Below, in pieces: positions 49,709 to 63,986 of a stretch of 64,000 nt of DNA (position 1 is the stretch's first letter; the number at the start of each line of letters is the position of its first letter). The notes beneath the pieces are model-generated. The model was not told the DNA's origin. It saw only the letters and a list, made by a program, of their open reading frames with translations, and ran no database searches. Origin of the DNA: an uncultured Methylococcaceae bacterium (GTDB lineage Bacteria > Pseudomonadota > Gammaproteobacteria > Methylococcales > Methylomonadaceae); assembly GCA_903917345.1 (NCBI GenBank), contig CAIXAE010000011.1:1-64000 (forward strand), in the 5' to 3' direction. The position numbers and the translations under genes were made by a program.

Positions 49709-50011
49709 CTAAGCAATTTTTTCTTTACGTGGGCGGCCGCTTCTGGGTTTGTCTAATAAGCCACAAATGCCGTCTTTGGTCCAAGATTTTAACCAAGCAA
49801 TAGTCGTTTGTTTGCAGACTCCAAAAATGTCTGATAATTCTTGAGCTTCAAATCCAGCATTGCTTAGAAGAACGGCATGTGCTCTCATTCTTGGTGTGTG
49901 GCCAGGATGACCCTTTTTCATGTGTTCTAAAGTAATTTTTTCTTCCGCCGTAAGTTCTTTAATAAGAGTCATGGTCATATTTCCTTTTTGAAAGTCAGGT
50001 TTATTATTCAA
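49709..50011 (-). CDS. Orphan helix-turn-helix protein, IS630-transposase N-terminal type
   Basis: A 100-residue protein matching only the DNA-binding head of IS630-family transposases: RMRAHAVLLSNAGFEAQEL, then the helix-turn-helix IFGVCKQTTIAWLKSW, then the linker DGICGLLDKPRSGRPRK. A full transposase has about 340 residues with a DDE domain; no such sequence follows in any frame, though an A6 run near the end resembles the slip site of two-ORF IS630 elements. It is either a transposon remnant or a retained DNA-binding protein. A start 12 codons inside is possible. Confidence 0.7.
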   Translation of the reverse strand: MNNKPDFQKGNMTMTLIKELTAEEKITLEHMKKGHPGHTPRMRAHAVLLSNAGFEAQELSDIFGVCKQTTIAWLKSWTKDGICGLLDKPRSGRPRKEKIA

Positions 50012-59482: not shown

Positions 59483-61123
59483 ATGACGAAACCAAATCAA
59501 GAAACTTCCCTGTTTTCTGGTCTAGAACCTCCAAAGATGCCAGGCGCATTACCTCTCTTCGGGCACATGCTCAAGTTCGGCAAGAATCCTTTTTTATACA
59601 TGATGAATCTTAGAAACAGCCTAGGAGAAATAGGCGAGTTTCGTATGTTTCATCAAAAAATGGTTTTGATGACCGGACCAGAAGCTAATGAGGCTTTTTT
59701 TCGTGCGCCCGATGCACAGCTTGATCAAAGCCAAGCATATAAAATTATGACGCCTATCTTTGGCAAAGGTGTCGTGTTTGATGCGCCTCCGCATAAAAAA
59801 GATCAACAACTCAAAATGCTAATGCCAGTTTTGCGTGATAAACCTATGCGTGGCTATGCGCAAGTTATCGTGCAAGAAGTCGAAGATATGATTGCCGGCT
59901 GGGGTGAAGCAGGTGAAATTGATTTGTTGGAGTTCATGAAAGAACTCACGATTTACACCTCTAGTCATTGTCTATTGGGCGATGAGTTTCGTTATGAGTT
60001 AAATGAAGAATTTGCCAAGATTTATCATGATTTGGAAAAAGGCGTTAATCCTTTAGCGTTTGTCTTTCCGTACTTGCCACTCCCCGTATTTCGTCGCAGA
60101 GATAAAGCGCGAGCTCGCTTACAAGAGTTAGTGACGGGTATTATTGCTAAAAGAGCTTTAAAAGCTGAAAAAAGTGATGATGCATTTCAGTTATTAATCG
60201 ATTCAAAATATGATGATGGTACCTCTTTATCTCCCCATGAAATTACGGGCATGTTAATTGGGACTATCTTCGCTGGCCATCATACAACTGCTGGGACTGC
60301 CGCTTGGACTTTATTAGAATTAGCTAGAAGACCTGAGCAATTGGAGTTGGTTTTAACTGAATTAGATCAACTGTTTGGTTTTGATGGTGACGTGACTTTT
60401 CAGTCCTTGCGTGAAATTCCGGTTCTAGAGAATGTTGTTAAAGAAGTCTTACGATTGCATCCGCCATTGATCTTTTTAATTCGAAAAGTGATGAAGGATT
60501 TTCACTTTAAAGGGTATACCGTTAAGGCAGGTAAATACGTATGCGCTTCGCCACGCGTGTCACATCGTATTGCAGAAATATTTCCTGATCCAGAAAAGTT
60601 TGATTTAGAGCGGTATTCAGAAGAACGTCAAGAAGATGCAAGACCGTTTAGTTGGATTGCTTTTGGTGGTGGCAAGCATAAGTGTACGGGCAATGCCTTT
60701 GCTATGTTGCAGTTAAAAGCTATTTTTAGCATCTTATTACGACGCTATACTTTTGAATTGGTTGATGAAAAAGATCAATATCAAGATGATTTTACTCAGA
60801 TGGTGGTGCAACCGTTATCACCTTGTCGAGTGCGTTATGTTAAGCGCAAAAGTCTGCAGGCTAGTACTGAAGAAATTGCTGAGTCTAGCGTGGCGCAGAC
60901 GGAAACCGTTGAACCAACAGGCTTTCAAATTCATTTAGATAGAGAATTATGTCAAGGGCATGCGACTTGTATGGCAGAAGCACCAGAGCTTTTTCAGGTA
61001 GATGACGAAGGCAATGTGACGGTACTTCAGGATAACCCTAGTTTAGAGGCTTTAGAAAAAGCCCAGCTCGCTGAAAAATATTGCCCTACCAAAGCAATTC
61101 TTATTAAAACCACAAATACGTAA
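59483..61123 (+). CDS. Sterol 14-alpha-demethylase (CYP51) fused to a 3Fe-4S ferredoxin
   Basis: Removes the C14 methyl group of a lanosterol-type sterol. It has 546 residues. The P450 part (about 1-450) has the CYP51 B-C signature YKIMTPIFGKGVVFD, the I-helix AGHHTT (His266-267), the ExxR pair Glu321/Arg324 and the heme loop FGGGKHKCTG with Cys401. A Ser/Thr/Glu-rich linker (about 455-478) joins a C-terminal ferredoxin with Cys490, Cys496 and Cys534-Pro, three cysteines as for a [3Fe-4S] cluster. The same fusion is known in Methylococcus capsulatus. It is the first gene of the sterol operon. Confidence 0.95.
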   Translation: MTKPNQETSLFSGLEPPKMPGALPLFGHMLKFGKNPFLYMMNLRNSLGEIGEFRMFHQKMVLMTGPEANEAFFRAPDAQLDQSQAYKIMTPIFGKGVVFDAPPHKKDQQLKMLMPVLRDKPMRGYAQVIVQEVEDMIAGWGEAGEIDLLEFMKELTIYTSSHCLLGDEFRYELNEEFAKIYHDLEKGVNPLAFVFPYLPLPVFRRRDKARARLQELVTGIIAKRALKAEKSDDAFQLLIDSKYDDGTSLSPHEITGMLIGTIFAGHHTTAGTAAWTLLELARRPEQLELVLTELDQLFGFDGDVTFQSLREIPVLENVVKEVLRLHPPLIFLIRKVMKDFHFKGYTVKAGKYVCASPRVSHRIAEIFPDPEKFDLERYSEERQEDARPFSWIAFGGGKHKCTGNAFAMLQLKAIFSILLRRYTFELVDEKDQYQDDFTQMVVQPLSPCRVRYVKRKSLQASTEEIAESSVAQTETVEPTGFQIHLDRELCQGHATCMAEAPELFQVDDEGNVTVLQDNPSLEALEKAQLAEKYCPTKAILIKTTNT

Positions 61124-61134
61124 TAGAGACAACC

Positions 61135-61737
61135 ATGGCGGTATATCCCAGAGCAGAACTTGAAGAAATGGTAGAACGTTGGTTACAAGCTAACCGTGAC
61201 GCAGAAAAAGAAGGTAACTGGCCTAAATATTTAGGGGCAATGTATACCGATGATGCGGAATACCGTTGGAATATTGGCCCAAATGAAGAGTTTGTCGCGC
61301 GCAGTCGTAAAGAGATTGAAGAGTGGGCCTTAGGCGTACAAATGGAAGGTTTTGAAGAATGGCGTTATCCTTATCATCGTATTTTAATTGATGAAAAACA
61401 GGGTGAGGTTATTGGTTTGTGGACCCAAGTTTCTCCCGCAGTGCGAGAAGATGGCACGCATTATCAAGTAGAAGGGATTGGCGGTTCTTGGTTTCGTTAT
61501 GGCGGCAACTATAAATGGGAATGGCAACGCGATTTCTTTGATTTAGGTAATGTAAAAGCCTTGTTTTTTGAGTTGGCTGGTGATGGGAAACTAGATCCTG
61601 CAGTAAAAACAAAAATTGGTAAATTAGCAAAAGGTCAATTATTACCTGGTCATGAGCGATTAAGACCACAGCCTAGTTTGTTTAAGAAATTGAAAGGCTT
61701 TATGGCAATGGTGCGTATTGCTTTATTTAATCGTTAA
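61135..61737 (+). CDS. NTF2-like (SnoaL-type) protein in the sterol operon
   Basis: A 200-residue protein of unknown function. Residues about 5-140 read as an NTF2-like alpha-plus-beta barrel: an N-terminal helix (AELEEMVERWLQANRDAEKE), then MYTDDAEYRWNIGPNEEF, GEVIGLWTQVSP and GIGGSWFRYGGNYKWEWQRDF. The C-terminal 60 residues are basic and end in a hydrophobic helix (LKGFMAMVRIALF) that could touch the membrane. It lies 11 bases after CYP51-ferredoxin and 5 before the cyclase, so it is almost certainly cotranscribed. NTF2-like folds include ketosteroid isomerase and polyketide cyclases; a sterol role is inferred from context. Confidence 0.82.
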   Translation: MAVYPRAELEEMVERWLQANRDAEKEGNWPKYLGAMYTDDAEYRWNIGPNEEFVARSRKEIEEWALGVQMEGFEEWRYPYHRILIDEKQGEVIGLWTQVSPAVREDGTHYQVEGIGGSWFRYGGNYKWEWQRDFFDLGNVKALFFELAGDGKLDPAVKTKIGKLAKGQLLPGHERLRPQPSLFKKLKGFMAMVRIALFNR

Positions 61738-61742
61738 AAGCT

Positions 61743-63986
61743 ATGCATAGTGTAAAACCTAGTTGGAAAAACTGGCAGTTATTGACTGAGCAAGGCCGAC
61801 ATATCTGGGCTTTTAAGCCGACATCAACGGATATCAATCAGCATTTACAAAATGCCCATAACATCTCGGCTCAGGAAATATCTTTAGCAGTTGAAGATTT
61901 TAAGTTTGATAAGCAAGTCAATCCCAACTCAGGTGATAAAGTCTTTAGATTTGCAGCAGTCGCTAATAACTTTAGAAGTTTTACAGGGGTAACGCCGCAA
62001 ACAAATAATCCTGAACAGCAAAAAGTAGCGGACTCGGTTATAAAGGGGATCAACTACTTTGCTAGTTTACAATGTGCTGATGGGCATTGGGCTGGCGATT
62101 ATGGCGGGCCATTATTTTTATTACCGGGCTTATTAATTGCCTCTTATGTCACTCACACGCCCTTTCCAAAAGCCCATCAAGAAATGATGAAGCTTTACGT
62201 GTTTAATCACCAAAATGCAGATGCAGGTTGGGGAATGCATATTGAAGGTGAATCGACTATGTTTGGCACGGTGATGCAATATGTATCATTAAGGTTGTTG
62301 GGCGTAGATAAAGATGAGCCGGCATTAGTTAAAGCCAGAGCATGGATTAAGCTTAATGGTGGTGCCACGGGTATTCCATCTTGGGGTAAGTTTTATTTAT
62401 CCATCTTAAATTTATATGACTGGCAGGGCTTTAATAGCCTGTTTCCAGAGATGTGGTTATTTCCTAAAGGGTTACCGTTTCATCCTTGGCGTTATTGGTG
62501 CCATAGTCGTATGGTGTATTTGCCAATGGCTTATTGTTACGCGCAACGTATCAAAATGCCCGAAAATGATTTGATTTTATCGCTAAGGACAGAGATTTAT
62601 AGCGAAGACTATGCTGAGATTAATTGGCCTCAGCAACGTAATACAGTGTGTGATAAAGATTCGTATACGGTTTTATCGCCAGTATTAAAGTGGATGAATT
62701 TATTCACTAACAGTTATGAAAAAATCAGTTGTGGTTGGTTGCGTAAAAAAGCGACAGATTACATTTTGCGTTACTTAAATGCGGAAGATCAGCAAACGGA
62801 TTACATTAATATTGGTCCAGTCAATAAAGTGATTAATTCCATTTGTATCTGGCATGCTTACGGTGCTGACTCAGAGCAGTTTAAACAACATGTGACGCGT
62901 TGGTTTGATTACCTATGGGTGGCAGAAGATGGTATGAAGATGAGCGGTTATAATGGCTCTCAACTTTGGGATACAGCCTTTTCAACGCGCGCCATACTAG
63001 AGAGTGATTTAGGCCAATTGTTTCCAGAGACTGTTCAGAAAGCTTATCAATTTATTGATCATTCGCAAATCAAGTCTGAACACGCTACTCATGCGGAATT
63101 TTTTAGACATCCTATGATCGGTAGTTGGCCGTTTTCTACTGCAGAGAATGGTTGGCCCGTTGCAGATTGTACGGCGGAAGGTTTAAGTGCTAGTTTGGCA
63201 GTCCATGAGTCGGGGTTAATTAAGCCAACGATTGATGAGAAGCGTATTCAGAAAGCGGTGGATATTATTTTGTCATATCAAAATAAGGATGGTGGCTGGG
63301 CAACTTATGAGTTATCAAGAGCGCCTAAGTGGTTGGAGAAACTAAATCCGTCAGAAGTGTTTGCCGATATAATGATCGATTATTCTTGGACTGAATGTAC
63401 GGCGGCTTGTGTTATTTCTTTAATAGAGATTCAACAGATTTATCCTGGTTATAAAAGTGTTGAGTTGAAAGAATCGATTAGTGCGGGTCTAGCGTTTATA
63501 CTTAAGCAACAAAAAACTGATGGTTCTTGGTACGGTGGTTGGGCTGTCTGTTTTACTTATGCTACTTGGTTTGCTGTTGATGCTTTAAGCAAAGCTAAAG
63601 CGAAGGGATATTATAATGATATTGTGTTAGTCGAAAGTATGCAAAAAGCCGCTGAATTTTTAGTGAAAAAACAAAAAGTAGATGGTGGTTGGGGTGAGAC
63701 TTTTAAATCTTGCTCAAAGTTAGTTTATACTGAGGCCGAGAAATCACAAGTGGTCAATACGGCTTGGGCCTTATTAGCTTTATTGCTTATAGAGGGTGTT
63801 GATAATTCGGTGATTAATTCTGGTGTCCATTTGCTTCTATGTAGACAAACCACCGAGGGTGATTGGGAACAAGAAAGTATTTCTGGTGTATTTAATTATA
63901 ATTGTATGATTACCTACGCTAATTATAGAAATATATTTCCGATCTGGGCCTTGAGTCGCTACTATAGGAAAACAAATCAGAAATGA
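61743..63986 (+). CDS. Oxidosqualene cyclase (lanosterol/cycloartenol synthase type)
   Basis: Cyclises 2,3-oxidosqualene to a protosterol. It has 747 residues, the full family length. The acid motif is ADCTAE with Asp475 and Cys476; this DCTAE form separates it from squalene-hopene cyclases (DxDD). QW-type motifs occur at DGHWAGDYGG, KDGGWATYE, TDGSWYGGWAV and VDGGWGET, and GVFNYNCMITYANYRNIFPI is the usual C-terminal block. Residues that steer product choice are Tyr403 in SGYNGSQ, Asn469 and Val473 just before the DCTAE motif, a mixed set. It is the third gene of the sterol operon; no squalene epoxidase is seen before the window ends. Confidence 0.95.
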   Translation: MHSVKPSWKNWQLLTEQGRHIWAFKPTSTDINQHLQNAHNISAQEISLAVEDFKFDKQVNPNSGDKVFRFAAVANNFRSFTGVTPQTNNPEQQKVADSVIKGINYFASLQCADGHWAGDYGGPLFLLPGLLIASYVTHTPFPKAHQEMMKLYVFNHQNADAGWGMHIEGESTMFGTVMQYVSLRLLGVDKDEPALVKARAWIKLNGGATGIPSWGKFYLSILNLYDWQGFNSLFPEMWLFPKGLPFHPWRYWCHSRMVYLPMAYCYAQRIKMPENDLILSLRTEIYSEDYAEINWPQQRNTVCDKDSYTVLSPVLKWMNLFTNSYEKISCGWLRKKATDYILRYLNAEDQQTDYINIGPVNKVINSICIWHAYGADSEQFKQHVTRWFDYLWVAEDGMKMSGYNGSQLWDTAFSTRAILESDLGQLFPETVQKAYQFIDHSQIKSEHATHAEFFRHPMIGSWPFSTAENGWPVADCTAEGLSASLAVHESGLIKPTIDEKRIQKAVDIILSYQNKDGGWATYELSRAPKWLEKLNPSEVFADIMIDYSWTECTAACVISLIEIQQIYPGYKSVELKESISAGLAFILKQQKTDGSWYGGWAVCFTYATWFAVDALSKAKAKGYYNDIVLVESMQKAAEFLVKKQKVDGGWGETFKSCSKLVYTEAEKSQVVNTAWALLALLLIEGVDNSVINSGVHLLLCRQTTEGDWEQESISGVFNYNCMITYANYRNIFPIWALSRYYRKTNQK

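Follow-up and report, generated by a model that had tools for sequence, protein, structure and literature searches.

A probable 8,14-sterol reductase gene between the CYP51-ferredoxin and oxidosqualene cyclase genes of an uncultured Methylococcaceae bacterium

CYP51 leaves a 14-double bond in its product, which sterol C-14 reductase (ERG24, family PF01222) removes to give an 8-sterol. In 2016, tested methanotrophs were reported to lack an ERG24 homologue although they remove this double bond (PMC4919349). A bacterial 8,14-sterol reductase, 8,14-Bsr, was published in May 2026 for Methylococcus capsulatus (H156_RS0106965; PMC13277303), and among the literature matches listed no second paper on this enzyme was found. 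In E. coli that also expressed CYP51, M. capsulatus 8,14-Bsr turned all detectable 4,4-dimethylcholesta-8,14,24-trienol into the 8(14),24-dienol; besides the M. capsulatus protein, those of Sandaracinus and M. tuberculosis were shown to convert an 8,14-diene to an 8(14)-sterol (PMC13277303).

Other enzymes described as NTF2-like catalyse different reactions. Ketosteroid isomerase has the same fold class and acts on a steroid substrate, according to the 8,14-Bsr report, and its active-site residues do not align with those of Bsr (PMC13277303). It shifts a double bond without reduction. The dehydratases BaiE, Hsh2 and SteC are SnoaL/NTF2-like and act on steroid rings, whereas their reaction is the removal of water (PMC13101464, PMC12175502).

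We analysed a window of 64,000 nucleotides from an uncultured Methylococcaceae bacterium, the whole stretch of DNA considered here. Comparison with the M. capsulatus enzyme makes us confident that positions 61135-61737 encode the 8,14-Bsr of the window organism.

The gene, its neighbours and the predicted pathway

The open-frame list of the window contains at 61135-61737 (+) an ORF of 200 aa with an ATG start, on the same strand as its neighbours. The features of the locus are:

59483..61123, + strand: CYP51 (sterol C-14 demethylase) with C-terminal ferredoxin fusion; Pfam p450 2.4e-78, Fer4_15 1.9e-10
61135..61737, + strand: probable 8,14-Bsr orthologue, 200 aa; 68% identity to M. capsulatus Texas; Y37, Y43, Y78, Y80, D133 and D136 at the published positions
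61743..63986, + strand: oxidosqualene cyclase, 747 aa; TIGR01787 8.7e-201; DCTAEG motif
contig 64031-65377, just beyond the window, same strand: squalene epoxidase; Pfam SE 8.1e-82

The 11-base gap TAGAGACAACC separates the end of CYP51-ferredoxin (61123) from the ORF, and the 5-base gap AAGCT separates the ORF from the cyclase start (61743). These coordinates agree with a sequence-only reading of the locus, which had placed a 200-residue ORF labelled NTF2-like between CYP51-ferredoxin and the cyclase, with spacers of 11 and 5 bases. CYP51-ferredoxin (59483-61123) displays the heme motif FGGGKHKCTG and the ferredoxin cysteine pattern CxxHxxC...CP, and its CYP51 is 60% identical to the sole match in M. 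capsulatus Texas (E up to 1e-20). The cyclase scores above the cut-off of TIGR01787 (668.8 bits, cut-off 322.7) and below that of the narrower TIGR03463 model (640.7 bits, cut-off 851). Downstream of the epoxidase, on the same strand, follow genes for phosphofructokinase and others not known for sterols, as named by eye. Elsewhere in the window, at 49709-50011, a 100-aa frame resembles by eye the N-terminal part of an IS630-type transposase.

The ORF at 61135-61737 is a real gene, being present in 47 of 101 genomes with low pairwise dN/dS (0.02-0.10 in four of six comparisons; dS was saturated in the other two). Its protein has a single match in the genome of the window organism. A search of our genome collection with an alignment of 11 relatives revealed 179 encoding stretches, the best 80 of which were used.

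Alignment of the window protein with its homologue from M. capsulatus str. Texas (L118) showed 133 identical residues of 197 (68%) without gaps, and the Texas genome holds this one homologue only. Residues Y37, Y43, Y78, Y80, D133 and D136 of the published enzyme have the same letters and numbers in the window protein, and they are identical in all 55 rows of an alignment (A2) comprising the window protein and 54 of the best 80 loci; the 26 omitted loci are 89-100% identical to the window. We take the Texas gene to be almost certainly the published M. capsulatus gene, judging by strain, single copy, residue numbers and a setting apart from sterol genes. The window gene resembles this 8,14-Bsr in its 68% identity, in the same tested residues and numbers and in the same association with CYP51-ferredoxin. 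It differs in its position: in M. capsulatus neither CYP51 nor the cyclase is next to the gene (PMC13277303; none within 5 kb in L118), whereas the window gene lies between both.

The window gene adds one more orthologue to a known enzyme, whose reaction was demonstrated for the M. capsulatus orthologue and is predicted for the window gene. The sequence-only reading had suggested a missing sterol enzyme that catalyses an isomerisation or reduction step, and had pointed to a catalytic Asp/Tyr. This idea is supported, yet it was already in print: the orthologue reduces the 8,14-diene and moves the remaining double bond to 8(14), and its activity depends on Tyr43 and Asp133 (PMC13277303).

By sequence the NTF2-like label is weak, as the Pfam matches fall below their gathering cut-offs (SnoaL_2 21 bits against 27, SnoaL_4 15.9 against 24), and the fold assignment is drawn mainly from a model published for M. 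capsulatus 8,14-Bsr (PMC13277303). Bsr profiles run against PDB sequences matched neither BaiE nor any other NTF2-like chain up to an E value of 10, and gave one chance match apiece. Scone propeller proteins in the PDB (E 1.5e-6) were rejected as relatives because one short stretch was matched, which is repeated along their chains. The C-terminal tail FKKLKGFMAMVRIALFNR is basic, hydrophobic and conserved in A2, is absent from the Nonomuraea protein and four distant relatives described below, and has an 18-residue helical moment of 0.10, which is low for an amphipathic helix. This tail may dock on the membrane; the published 8,14-Bsr was suggested to touch the membrane loosely or to contact CYP51 (PMC13277303).

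In the predicted pathway squalene epoxidase and oxidosqualene cyclase would form lanosterol, CYP51-ferredoxin would convert it to 4,4-dimethylcholesta-8,14,24-trienol, and 8,14-Bsr would add two hydrogens to the conjugated 8,14-diene so that one double bond, 8(14), stays. These four genes would suffice to turn squalene into a sterol that is demethylated at C-14 and reduced. A search for the ERG24-type reductase (PF01222) revealed no match in the genome of the window organism, and a Pfam scan of the window protein gave no PF01222 match at E up to 1. Among the 101 genomes the ERG24 family is full-length in four, a fifth lies above the cut-off with a short match only, and another eight have short matches below the cut-off.

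A Rieske search in the genome of the window organism found no long SdmA-type oxygenase, the only open frames detected being 110 and 205 aa long. Frames of 375-380 aa were found in M. capsulatus, M. luteus and G007, with two of 519 aa also in M. luteus, and none longer than 248 aa in M. lenta, G021 and G029. Judged by this family search and the open-frame lengths, the window organism appears to be without SdmA, which we regard as a lead, and with no long Rieske frame its end product would probably be a 4,4-dimethyl 8(14)-sterol.

Occurrence of Bsr with CYP51 and with the cyclase

Among 101 genomes including that of the window organism, the gene was found in 47, CYP51-ferredoxin (counted at E below 1e-100) in 50 and both in 47; none of the 101 has the gene without CYP51. 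A true cyclase is present in 50 of the 101, counted with a limit of E below 1e-100 that was set after inspecting the matches and that separates true cyclases (best match at least 402 bits) from squalene-hopene cyclases (at most 160 bits). In the three genomes with CYP51 only (G008, G030, G052), CYP51 is truncated by a contig end, so the gene that follows cannot be judged.

Four genomes have a cyclase without Bsr. CYP51 is cut at the contig end in two of them (G030, G052), and the contig of a third (G015) starts within the cyclase. In the fourth (G071), of the same order and 99% complete, the cyclase adjoins the epoxidase (L132, G071:C29), and searches revealed neither a Bsr match nor a CYP51 match (E up to 1e-20); this organism may therefore end the pathway at lanosterol. 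Conversely, G017 has Bsr without a cyclase, on a contig that stops 58 bases past the Bsr match. Two gammaproteobacteria outside the 101, HdN1 (L123) and M0112 (L110), have Bsr and CYP51 at 58-60%, and no cyclase match was found in HdN1 (complete genome) or in M0112 (an assembly of unstated completeness). In Nonomuraea gerenzanensis (L141) P450, ferredoxin and Bsr are consecutive, with no cyclase in the 12.5 kb viewed around Bsr. HdN1, M0112 and Nonomuraea perhaps modify externally acquired sterols.

Bsr presence tracks CYP51, not the cyclase, as is expected where an enzyme acts on the product of CYP51; trees also led to a tie of Bsr to CYP51 (PMC13277303). The co-occurrence with CYP51 and the cyclase that the sequence-only reading had proposed as a test holds within these 101 related genomes, with CYP51 in all 47 gene-positive ones; the tie is to CYP51 and not to the cyclase as such, which departs in both directions. 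CYP51-positive genomes without a cyclase match (HdN1, M0112) narrow the link to CYP51 and do not refute it.

Homologues are not widespread in genomes without sterol genes: across a sample of the class, 4 of 369 genomes gave matches, namely the window organism, two members of the same order and G260 with distant proteins only, which leaves the sterol reading standing. Outside the class, sampling covered plasmid records, 12 of 72,556 of which matched (10 Sphingobium, one Novosphingobium and one Nonomuraea of chromosome size); what is said here about mycobacteria and myxobacteria comes from PMC13277303.

Linkage was counted at the best 80 of the 179 loci, which were picked for containing Bsr. CYP51 or its ferredoxin is present at 75 of these 80. 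In 61, CYP51-ferredoxin ends at most 60 bases upstream on the same strand, including one locus (L102) whose contig holds just the ferredoxin end; in six more it is found on that strand at a distance of up to 5 kb, in eight it is divergent, and none was seen in five. At two Methylococcus loci (L117, L118) 5 kb on either side are present and CYP51 is absent. The order P450, ferredoxin, Bsr is constant, either with the first two fused (window; HdN1, L123) or as separate genes (Nonomuraea, L141). For Methylobacter luteus, MetluDRAFT_1253, 1255 and 1256 were tabulated (PMC4919349) and are read here as CYP51, cyclase and epoxidase; from locus L080, MetluDRAFT_1254 is by position probably Bsr.

Apparent fusions of Bsr were rejected. 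Long open frames around the gene in G063, G078 and G020 could have been fusions pointing to the hydride donor. The extra N-terminal parts in G063 and G078 are Arg/Pro-rich by eye, like high-GC read-through. In G020 a 592-aa frame runs from CYP51 into the first Bsr residues (L042, G020:C211). A two-N gap at G020:C211 3546-3547 shifts the frame, and beyond it the end of the ferredoxin and its stop lie in another frame; this CYP51-Bsr fusion is therefore taken as an assembly artefact. G020 holds a second, full Bsr copy on a different contig.

Comparison with the Methylococcus-type loci (L113, L115, L119, L122, L124) showed 34-42% identity for the window cyclase and 21-24% for the epoxidase, compared with 60-67% for CYP51 and 63-70% for Bsr. 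On these identities the order Methylococcales has two very different sets of predicted cyclase and epoxidase, with CYP51 and Bsr in common; methanotroph cyclases were also reported as two groups (PMC4919349). One in-frame TAG was observed within the cyclase match in each of two related genomes (G018:C1:670426-672648 and G034:C101:15075-17297). Three assemblies labelled Crenothrix polyspora (L065, L074, L075) have Bsr, CYP51 and a cyclase, and C. polyspora serves as a non-producer in PMC13277303; the assembly labels of this species may be loose.

Order of proton and hydride transfer and alternative roles

Mutants of the M. capsulatus enzyme showed decreased function for D133A, Y43F and Y43A and no effect for D136A, Y80F and Y80A; Y37F and Y78F were fine, whereas Y37A and Y78A were impaired, so that at these two positions the ring is required and the hydroxyl group dispensable (PMC13277303). 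According to the same report, 8,14-Bsr is without homology to known cofactor sites. The net change would be a 1,4-addition of hydrogen at C15 and C9, and the question is in which order the two hydrogens arrive.

We somewhat favour an acid-first route, with a proton going to C15 and hydride then going to C9. Tyr43 and Asp133 would aid the protonation of C15, an allylic cation across C14-C8-C9 would be stabilised by the aromatic rings of Tyr37 and Tyr78, and the hydride for C9 would probably come from NAD(P)H, a guess shared by the authors of the published work (PMC13277303).

The reverse order, in which hydride first goes to C15 and a proton is then added to the allylic anion at C9, is a serious contender that we rate behind the acid-first route; it concerns the order of steps, not the identity of the enzyme. 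It is the proposal of the authors of PMC13277303, made by analogy with the canonical C-14 reductase, which they describe as hydride-first, and in that report no mutant gave a half-reaction with reduction apart from isomerisation. However, the diene is not activated for hydride, as no carbonyl renders it electrophilic. The eukaryotic C-14 reductase protonates its substrate first, contrary to the wording of the 8,14-Bsr report, and is inhibited by carbocation mimics. The need for aromatic rings without hydroxyl groups at positions 37 and 78 would suit a cation better than an anion. For these three reasons protonation before hydride transfer is preferred here.

A different electron source seems improbable to us, namely that the CYP51 ferredoxin feeds electrons to the sterol and that CYP51-ferredoxin and Bsr form one complex passing on both substrate and electrons. 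The kept order of P450, ferredoxin and Bsr, fused or separate, and the frequency of CYP51 or its ferredoxin at the Bsr loci described above would fit such a complex; the single electrons of a ferredoxin are by general chemistry ill-suited to reducing an isolated diene, and CYP51 is missing within 5 kb at L117 and L118 and divergent in eight loci. The E. coli assay contained CYP51-ferredoxin whenever the trienol was made and so does not decide the point (PMC13277303). That the protein is a non-catalytic sterol carrier or holder of an intermediate, as the sequence-only reading had also entertained, is very improbable and found no support: steroids can bind NTF2-like cones (PMC13277303) and the basic C-terminal tail is conserved, but the orthologue turned over all detectable trienol, Y43 and D133 mutants lower its function (PMC13277303), and a search of the genome of the window organism revealed no further C-14 reductase.

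Distant relatives and implications

Distant relatives at 29-32% were detected on 11 sphingomonad plasmids, and the gammaproteobacterial genome G260 holds two (L130 and L131, E 2.5e-18 and 2.0e-9). We analysed four settings. On Sphingobium pTomMM15a (L143; protein BDX62839.1) the neighbours are 3-oxosteroid 1-dehydrogenase, oxygenase and short-chain dehydrogenase genes; TomMM15 is an isolate in a study of tomatine breakdown (PMC10653915). This cluster is the only one of the four with an annotated steroid gene. The neighbours on Novosphingobium pNL2 (L142) are dehydrogenase, FAD-binding and more NTF2-like genes, none annotated as steroid genes; L131 lies by eye among dehydrogenase- and hydratase-like genes and L130 among housekeeping genes. 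No CYP51 match was found in the stretch around any of the four, and G260 showed no cyclase match and only distant P450s.

At position 37 these four proteins (25-31% identity) have Y, Y, Y and F; all have Y43, F78 and D133, so that the changes at these four positions are only those tolerated by the mutants. Position 80 is I, I, Y and Q, three of the four thus being without Y80, and position 136 is D, D, D and N. The alignment of 10 sequences omits L131, which was judged from a separate alignment. Of three further NTF2-like proteins encoded in the two plasmid clusters, which serve as poorly alignable controls, none matches more than one of the four needed positions.

The shared Tyr43/Asp133 pair and the aromatic cage at 37 and 78 raise the speculative idea that NTF2-like steroid enzymes form a wider family of which 8,14-Bsr is a single branch. 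Its distant members would then be so far undescribed diene reductases or isomerases that act in steroid breakdown through a cation and dispense with a Rossmann fold. With four sequences at 25-31% identity behind it, we consider this idea rather unlikely, and known Hsh2-type dehydratases may be among the four.

The window gene supplies an orthologue that is only 68% identical to the tested enzyme, with its active residues unchanged. The association of Bsr with CYP51 rather than with the cyclase, in both directions, is an independent addition to the published result. The findings raise the questions of the hydride source and the order of transfer, and of the function of the distant relatives. 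If the assignment is true, it fills for this organism the gap described in 2016, the removal of the 14-double bond without ERG24 (PMC4919349).
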